Shown in pieces: positions 15,628-17,074 of a DNA stretch of 64,000 bases. Below the pieces are notes generated by a model. The model saw only the letters and a list, made by a program, of their open reading frames with translations. It ran no database searches and was not told the origin of the DNA. Source of the DNA: Armatimonadota bacterium. GTDB taxonomy: Bacteria > Sysuimicrobiota > Sysuimicrobiia > Sysuimicrobiales > Humicultoraceae. Every line of letters begins with the position of its first letter. The first letter of the stretch is position 1. The stretch spans positions 540,059-604,058 of the forward strand of contig JAVKHP010000001.1 of the NCBI GenBank assembly GCA_031459855.1, written 5' to 3'. Position numbers and translations under genes: made by a program.

Positions 15628-16338
15628 TCAGCCGGACGGTCGCTCCGCCTCTCCGGGGGCCGGCGCGTGCGCCCGCACCACGTCGGTGATGGCGGCCACC
15701 AGGTGCGCTTCGGGCACGGCGCCCACCACTTCGCCCACGTCGTTGATCACGGTCTTGGGCACCGCGTACACGTTGTACCGCTGGGCCAGGTCGGGGAACT
15801 CGCTGGCCTCGACGATGTCCGCGCGGACCCGCGGGGACGCGATCGCGAGATCGGCGGCCAGCCTGGCCGCCCGGGGACAGTGGGGTCAGGTGGGCGTGAC
15901 GAAGACCTGCAGGTGGACGTCGACGGGCAGGCGCTCCAGCGCCGCGCGGGTCTCGTCGGAGATGGGCGCGCGCCCTTTGGAGACGTCCAGCACCAGGTCC
16001 AGCAGGGTCACGAACTCGTAGCCGGCCGGCGCACCGTAGAAGCGGACGCCGTAGTCCTCGGCGCCGATGACCAGCGTGGCCGGCGCCCGCGCCACGCCGT
16101 ACTGGCGCGCCAGGTCGGGCTCGCCCGCCAGGCTGTGCTCCTCCAGGTGCACGCGGTCCGAGAGCCGGGCGAACTCCTGCAGGATCCGCCGCGTGTACTC
16201 GGCCATCTCCCAGTCCGCCCCGGGCACCGCCAGACCGCCCAGACTCGGGGCGAAGAAGACCAACCGCACGTCGTGCACCAGCTCGTCGGCCAGCCGCTTG
16301 CGGACGAACGCTGCATCCTGATCGGTGAGCAACGGCAT
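15628..16338 (-). CDS. Selenocysteine-containing protein disulfide oxidoreductase (UPHC active site, TGA recoded)
   Basis: A 236-residue glutaredoxin-like protein disulfide oxidoreductase (PDO) begins at ATG 16338 behind GGAGG. A TGA at 15886-15888 falls exactly where the first cysteine of the C-terminal CPHC active site is expected (residue 151, TPT-U-PHC-PRAARLAADLA). The same frame continues for 85 residues with textbook thioredoxin-fold sequence, including the cis-proline motif YNVYAVPKTVIND, to a TGA at 15628. A hairpin suited to a bacterial SECIS follows the UGA. The N-terminal thioredoxin repeat lacks a CxxC, so the U-x-x-C pair is probably the sole redox centre. The protein would be a cytosolic thiol-disulfide or peroxide-handling factor. 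Automatic gene calling would stop at the UGA or miss the C-terminal third. Confidence 0.85.
15853..15871 (-). promoter_or_regulatory. Putative bacterial SECIS hairpin
   Basis: On the coding strand the mRNA reads GGCGGCCA-GGC-TGGCCGCC, a perfect 8-bp stem with a 3-nt loop (or 7 bp with loop AGGCU). The loop begins about 22 nt after the UGA codon. This matches the known bacterial pattern: a stem-loop within the coding region just 3' of the UGA, with a guanine among the first loop bases. It would bind SelB and direct selenocysteine insertion. SelA/B/C/D genes are not in the window. Confidence 0.7.
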
Positions 16339-16405: not shown

Positions 16406-16471
16406 GTGACCGCCACGCCCGTGCTGGACGACAAAGGCCCGAGGGGACGGGCCCGCAGCTTCGAGCCGTGA
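16406..16471 (+). other. 21-codon upstream frame overlapping the HTH gene start (GTGA)
   Basis: A GTG at 16406 opens a 21-residue frame (VTATPVLDDKGPRGRARSFE and one more residue) whose TGA overlaps the GTG start of the next gene as GTGA. Its first 27 bases are a one-mismatch copy of the first 27 bases of that gene. It could be a translated leader, but no ribosome site precedes it and it may simply be a by-product of a short duplication. Confidence 0.3.
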
Positions 16472-16494
16472 CCGCCGCGCCCGTGCTGGACGAC
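16406..16494 (+). repeat. Imperfect direct repeat, two 27-mers 62 bp apart
   Basis: The segment 16406-16432 recurs at 16468-16494 with 26 of 27 bases identical (A versus G at the tenth base). Both copies start with GTGACCGCC and end with GCTGGACGAC. The second copy is the start of the HTH protein gene. The 62-bp offset is not a multiple of three, so this is not an in-frame coding repeat. Confidence 0.8.
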
Positions 16495-16842
16495 GACGCC
16501 AGGGTCCTGGCCCACCTGCGGGGGTACCCTGAGGACCTGCGGCACTTCAGCAACCTCGTCAAACAGGCCCACCCGCGGGGCATCTCGGCGCTGCGCCTCG
16601 TGCTGAGCCGTCCGCAGGCGTCCGACTCGTTCGTCGCTGCCGTGTGCCGCGCGGTCGCCGAGGGCATCCCGGTCGTGAGCGCCGTGGAGGCGGCAGAGCG
16701 CTTCGGCCTGCCCCCGCGGCGCTTCCTCGACGAGGTGGCCGCGCGCCCGGACTTCCCCACGCCGTTGTTCGCCTCGGGGGACCGACGCCTGTGGCGGGCC
16801 GACGACGTCGAGCGCTACCGGGCAGCCTGGCCAGCAGGGTGA
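16468..16842 (+). CDS. Small helix-turn-helix DNA-binding protein (AlpA/MerR-like fold)
   Basis: This is a 124-residue protein starting at GTG 16468. Its C-terminal half (about residues 70-122) looks like a winged HTH of the excisionase/AlpA type: VSAVEAAERFGLPPRRFLDE, then a RPDFPTPLF turn and RRLWRADDVERYRAAW. Such proteins bind short operators as small transcription factors. The N-terminal half is not recognised. It is divergently arranged with the selenoprotein gene, 129 bp apart, and 4 bp upstream of a zinc-ribbon gene. It could regulate the selenoprotein operon, but that is inference from position. Confidence 0.6.
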   Translation: MTAAPVLDDDARVLAHLRGYPEDLRHFSNLVKQAHPRGISALRLVLSRPQASDSFVAAVCRAVAEGIPVVSAVEAAERFGLPPRRFLDEVAARPDFPTPLFASGDRRLWRADDVERYRAAWPAG

Positions 16843-16846
16843 TCCG

Positions 16847-17074
16847 ATGGCCGCATTTGCCCTGTGGGTGACGTGCGTCGCGTGCCGCCGGCCTTTCGAC
16901 AGCGGGCTGCGGATGGATCGCGCCTCGTTCGCCCGCGGCACGCTGGCCGCCAACTACCACACCTGCCCGCACTGCGGGGTGCGCGCGACGTACCGGAAGG
17001 CCGACTACACGCTGCACCCGGCGCCACCCCGCAGGGATGCGGGCGCGCGCGGCGGGCGTCTGGCGCGCGACTGA
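16847..17074 (+). CDS. Small zinc-ribbon protein of unknown function
   Basis: This is a 75-residue protein with two cysteine pairs, CVAC at about 10-13 and CPHC near 40-43, spaced as in zinc ribbons. A basic tail follows. The ATG at 16847 lies 4 bp after the HTH gene, so the two are co-transcribed. No specific family was recognised; zinc-ribbon proteins of this size often bind nucleic acid or assist larger complexes. Confidence 0.6.
   Translation: MAAFALWVTCVACRRPFDSGLRMDRASFARGTLAANYHTCPHCGVRATYRKADYTLHPAPPRRDAGARGGRLARD

Follow-up and report, generated by a model that had tools for sequence, protein, structure and literature searches.

A predicted selenocysteine form of protein disulfide oxidoreductase in Candidatus Sysuimicrobiota

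In the stretch of DNA analysed here (the window; 64,000 nt), the standard code splits a gene for a protein disulfide oxidoreductase (PDO) in two. Such a split would suit a pseudogene or a sequencing error, i.e. a TGA that arose from TGC or TGT in a dead gene. The original prediction proposed instead that the TGA encodes selenocysteine (Sec). Is the gene broken, or is it read through? We conclude that the apparently broken gene is almost certainly intact, with its internal stop read as Sec at the active site.

The gene, its active site and its fold

The features of the locus are as follows.

15628-16338, minus strand: gene for the putative Sec-containing protein disulfide oxidoreductase (matches to TIGR02187.2 and to the PDO fold)
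15886-15888, minus strand: in-frame TGA, predicted Sec codon 151, opening the UPHC motif (TGA in 21 genomes)
15877-15879, minus strand: resolving Cys154 of the UPHC motif, codon TGT (from translation; invariant in the alignment)
15757-15759, minus strand: Pro194 in VYAVPK, expected to be the cis-Pro in the second thioredoxin fold (from translation; invariant in the alignment)
16201-16212, minus strand: degenerate N-terminal active site W43-E-M-A46 (Cys forms have CxxC there)
15853-15871, minus strand: bacterial SECIS-type hairpin, apical loop AGGCU at 15864-15860, spaced 21 nt from the TGA

Direct translation from the ATG at 16338 on the minus strand gave 150 sense codons upstream of the TGA and 85 downstream, i.e. 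236 codons including U151, followed by a TGA stop at 15630-15628. As the gene's own terminal codon is TGA, this codon is unlikely to have been reassigned generally. The context of codon 151 (VFVTPT-U-PHCPRAARLAADLA) confirmed two parts of the original prediction, namely that the TGA falls exactly on the first active-site Cys, in the TPT-U-PHC of a tandem-thioredoxin PDO, and that the same frame runs on for 85 residues to a natural end. The first thioredoxin repeat was also correctly described as lacking CxxC: it reads GADWEMAEY, with W43 and A46 replacing the Cys residues of relatives, and the absence of this N-terminal motif supports, for this protein, the claim that the Sec-Cys pair is the only redox centre. 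Pro194 is presumably cis, as judged from knowledge of the family. The label '80-kDa-type', which had been attached to Sec incorporation, is inapplicable to a protein of 236 residues.

With C in place of U, the protein scored 223.7 bits against the NCBIfam model TIGR02187.2 PDO_seleno_TRX (curated cut-off 185 bits), covering profile positions 2-207 of 209, and U151 aligned with the first Cys of CPYC in the Pyrococcus PDO (1a8l). An AlphaFold model (pLDDT 91.7, pTM 0.87) had two tandem thioredoxin folds and matched the Aquifex (2ayt) and Pyrococcus (1a8l) enzymes with TM 0.85-0.86 over 228-231 columns. The C/UxxC of the second fold is present as U151-P-H-C154, at positions that are invariant in the alignment. 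Archaeal-type PDOs are also characterised by a CxxC in the first fold (PMC7465337), where the present protein has the degenerate site.

Homologous copies and the Sec machinery

A family search over 43 genomes of the phylum found a copy with TGA at this codon in 21 of them, and 11 further in-phylum copies with a Cys codon (TGC/TGT). The checked outgroup copies (WOR-3, Caldisericota, Chloroflexota and archaea) had Cys at the site. A peptide-pattern search of public genomes identified eight close relatives, and every one had TGA (8/8); their records are among those of the 21 genomes and were counted once. It had been proposed to see whether Cys replaces U in homologues, and among the copies examined the site held either TGA or a Cys codon, with no other residue seen. 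Sec and Cys PDO paralogues occurred together in three genomes, G013 (L068/L095), G024 (L070/L094) and G004 (L096/L080).

That 21 genomes share a TGA at this codon places its position beyond chance. In every comparison with 19 Sec relatives, identity was higher after the TGA (57-75%) than before it (33-71%), and third codon positions differed most on both sides, the pattern expected if translation continues past the TGA. A dead or misread gene would account for the split under the standard code, but not for a TGA shared by 21 genomes from many assemblies, for the constraint on the downstream frame, or for a hairpin and a rare AGG codon conserved only in the TGA copies (see below). The 21 concordant genomes led us to reject a pseudogene or a sequencing error, either of which we regard as extremely improbable. 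The same conservation bears on a different possibility, that the TGA mainly serves regulated termination, with the 150-residue N-terminal half as the main product and the full-length protein as a minor one. Bacterial Sec insertion is often inefficient, as this would require, but the N-terminal half has no redox motif and the half downstream of the TGA is the better conserved part; we give regulated termination almost no credence.

Sec insertion requires dedicated machinery, and the original prediction proposed a search for selA, selB, selD and tRNA-Sec. All four were present in the source genome (3.19 Mb, four contigs, 97.7% complete).

C1:2651865-2651956: tRNA-Sec (66 bits; SeC(tca) by ARAGORN)
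C1:2654244-2656115: SelB (349-350 bits, cut-off 242)
directly beside SelB: SelA (549.5 bits, cut-off 268)
G000:C1:1149867-1150790: SelD (L060; 388.5 bits)

The tRNA-Sec gene lies ∼2.3 kb from the SelA/SelB pair. SelD is itself a second Sec gene of this genome, with one in-frame TGA in CAG-U-ASK, which we take to be its usual Sec site. Formate dehydrogenase was considered as a further Sec gene, and this genome's TIGR01591 matches contained no in-frame TGA.

Among genomes at least 90% complete, SelB scored over the cut-off in 12 of the 13 with a Sec copy and in 3 of the 7 with Cys copies only. Five TGA-form genomes had no SelB above the cut-off. Completeness is 69-87% in four of them; the fifth, G019, which is the one exception among the 13, carries a SelB fragment where a contig ends. 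SelB was also over the cut-off in genomes without a PDO match (G006-G010, G022, G025, G026, G028 and others), which probably have other Sec genes. Since there are several such genomes, the PDO is not the sole reason for retaining the Sec machinery.

The hairpin downstream of the TGA

The perfect hairpin reported at bacterial SECIS spacing is real. At 15871-15853 (GGCGGCC-AGGCT-GGCCGCC) it has a 7-bp stem and a 5-nt loop of NGNNU form, and the TGA-to-loop distance is 21 nt. The published bSECIS model has a loop of 3-9 nt, a stem of 4-16 bp, an MFE of -7.5 or lower, a G in the first two loop positions and a distance of 16-37 nt from the UGA (PMC13188914). In agreement, the G is at loop position 2, the 25-nt hairpin stretch folds at -16.9 kcal/mol (z -2.5), and loop, stem and spacing all lie within these ranges. 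The folding energy of a 54-nt stretch was ordinary at such GC content (z -0.24 vs shuffles) and thus uninformative, so the case for a SECIS rests on the comparison of Sec and Cys copies and not on energy.

Over the 21 Sec copies, 133 of 147 pair cells (90.5%) were formed, compared with 38 of 77 (49%) in the 11 Cys copies, which is no better than shuffles, and the covariation score of the Sec copies was higher than in any of 500 shuffles or any slid register; the shuffle figures, like the Fisher p-values, ignore the kinship of the sequences and serve as a guide only. Eight pair cells of the Sec copies were altered on both sides, i.e. compensated. In three f4 genomes, the G-C pair at columns 21/33 was changed to A-U on both sides via synonymous codons. 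The Arg codon of the loop was AGG in 19 of 21 Sec copies and in none of the 11 Cys copies; over the rest of these Sec genes AGG is rare, at 14 of 320 Arg codons. Six Sec copies (the three f4 copies, G011, G042 and, for one pair, G012) had outer stem pairs unformed in this register, but all retained the loop G and the four innermost pairs. The proposed bSECIS check thus found a hairpin that fits the published model and is conserved, with compensation, in the Sec copies.

Low-level misreading of UGA is generally known, and the present evidence, being sequence comparison, is also compatible with plain read-through or with another amino acid at this codon (e.g. Cys or Trp, from a near-cognate tRNA). 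Such a reading has to contend with the complete Sec machinery in the genome, the SECIS-type hairpin and the in-phylum paralogues that use Cys codons at the site, even alongside a Sec copy (G013, G024 and G004), and we consider it very unlikely. Decoding of the TGA as Sec, the central claim of the original prediction, is strongly supported by the sel machinery, the site restricted to Sec or Cys and the conserved, compensated putative bSECIS.

Proposed mechanism, history and relation to known proteins

We propose, with high confidence, that the gene encodes a tandem-thioredoxin PDO in which SelB and Sec-tRNA-Sec would decode UGA codon 151 as Sec, guided by the hairpin that lies 21 nt further on. 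The sole redox centre would be Sec151 and Cys154 of the second thioredoxin fold, and the first fold, without CxxC, would have a structural role, like its counterpart in AhpF's N-terminal domain. The nucleophile that attacks is probably Sec; Cys154 would resolve the selenenylsulfide, which would then be re-reduced by an NADPH-dependent thioredoxin reductase, a likely partner whose gene is in the genome (G000:C1:1012799-1013695; 417.8 bits). Protein disulfides or peroxiredoxins are the predicted substrates. Without selenium, or without the hairpin, translation would be expected to stop, leaving a 150-residue fragment. In the Sulfolobus PDO, thiol transfer depends mainly on the C-terminal site, isomerase activity requires both sites, and NADPH and thioredoxin reductase feed the enzyme, which regenerates peroxiredoxins (PMC7465337). 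By analogy, we infer that the one-site Sec enzyme would be a reductase fed by thioredoxin reductase rather than an isomerase.

In a tree of 49 copies, 18 Sec copies formed one clade (91/80) and three fell in another beside Cys copies. This tree needs two changes of state, although Sec may still have arisen only once in the phylum. In the large Sec clade the N-terminal CxxC persists in the first branch (G029, G030 and G032) and has been lost from the remaining 15 copies, that of the window among them. Retention was seen in 6 of 21 Sec copies and in 10 of 10 testable in-phylum Cys copies; within the phylum, loss occurred only among Sec copies. Because the first branch and all the testable Cys copies retain the motif, the move to Sec most likely came before the loss in this phylum. 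Cys copies without the N-terminal CxxC also occur outside it (e.g. in Caldisericota), so the loss does not require Sec.

Two small genes are divergent from the Sec-PDO gene: one at 16468-16842 (plus strand) is unclassified, with no Pfam or NCBIfam match, and one at 16847-17074 (plus strand) is zinc-ribbon-like (CxxC...CPHC), with sub-threshold matches. Both are conserved beside most Sec copies that lack the N-terminal CxxC, and neither was found when looked for beside the f4 Sec copies and the Cys copies. A 28-base direct repeat with two differences (16406-16433 and 16468-16495; expected 0 by chance) is also present: one copy covers the likely start of the divergent gene, and the other, out of frame, lies 62 bases upstream. 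We tentatively suggest, while leaning somewhat against it, that in the phylum Cys was replaced by Sec at the second site first, which freed the first fold to lose its CxxC, and that a two-site PDO so became a one-site selenoenzyme with a new task (reductase, not isomerase) tied to the two small divergent genes found beside this clade only.

The claim of a 'new selenoprotein' did not hold at the level of the family, since the UxxC form of TIGR02187 is already listed (PMC1794560, PMC9312934, PMC13188914). A 2006 census gave a 'homolog of AhpF, amino-terminal domain' as a selenoprotein in Carboxydothermus and Symbiobacterium (PMC1794560), inventories of 2022 and 2026 list TIGR02187, UxxC, ABB15282.1 (PMC9312934, PMC13188914), and the Sec form is also recorded in Asgard archaea. 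Indeed, the NCBI model name PDO_seleno_TRX already says 'seleno'. The gene adds a new lineage to a selenoprotein family that is already known. The phylum, Candidatus Sysuimicrobiota, was formerly CSP1-3 (NCBI entry for ANGP1). Its main genomic description does not mention selenium (PMC11604079), and no paper linking CSP1-3 with selenocysteine or reporting selenium use in the phylum was found in the literature covered, which was incomplete. The spread of the Sec form through this lineage is apparently unreported, as apparently is the in-phylum loss of the N-terminal CxxC only among Sec copies, which leaves U151-C154 as the sole redox pair. What is added here is the presence and history of the selenium form across one little-studied bacterial phylum: a gene split by the standard code becomes a probable functional selenoenzyme, and a putative Sec-decoding lineage is documented in an uncultured phylum. 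Sec and Cys copies occur within one phylum, sometimes within one genome, and differ in whether the N-terminal site survives; they form a natural series that can be used to ask what Sec contributes to a disulfide oxidoreductase.

Among known systems, the AhpF N-terminal domain (1zyn, 5h29, 6il7) also has tandem thioredoxin folds, which our AlphaFold model matched with TM 0.72-0.80, and has one functional active site, in the second fold. The present protein differs in being stand-alone, without a flavin reductase fusion, and in the predicted replacement of Cys by Sec. The PDOs of Pyrococcus furiosus, Aquifex aeolicus and Sulfolobus (1a8l, 2ayt) likewise have two thioredoxin folds per chain, with a C-terminal CPYC that corresponds to UPHC, but are Cys enzymes with CxxC in both folds (PMC7465337), whereas the present protein has the predicted Sec in its second fold and no CxxC in its first. 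The TIGR02187 'Homolog of AhpF N-terminal domain (Grx-like domain protein)' ABB15282.1 shares both the family model and Sec at the first position of UxxC, a likeness judged by the family model and the published motif. Selenoproteins of this type are those of Carboxydothermus hydrogenoformans, Symbiobacterium thermophilum and Asgard archaea, and the lineage described here belongs, by its relatives, to Ca. Sysuimicrobiota.
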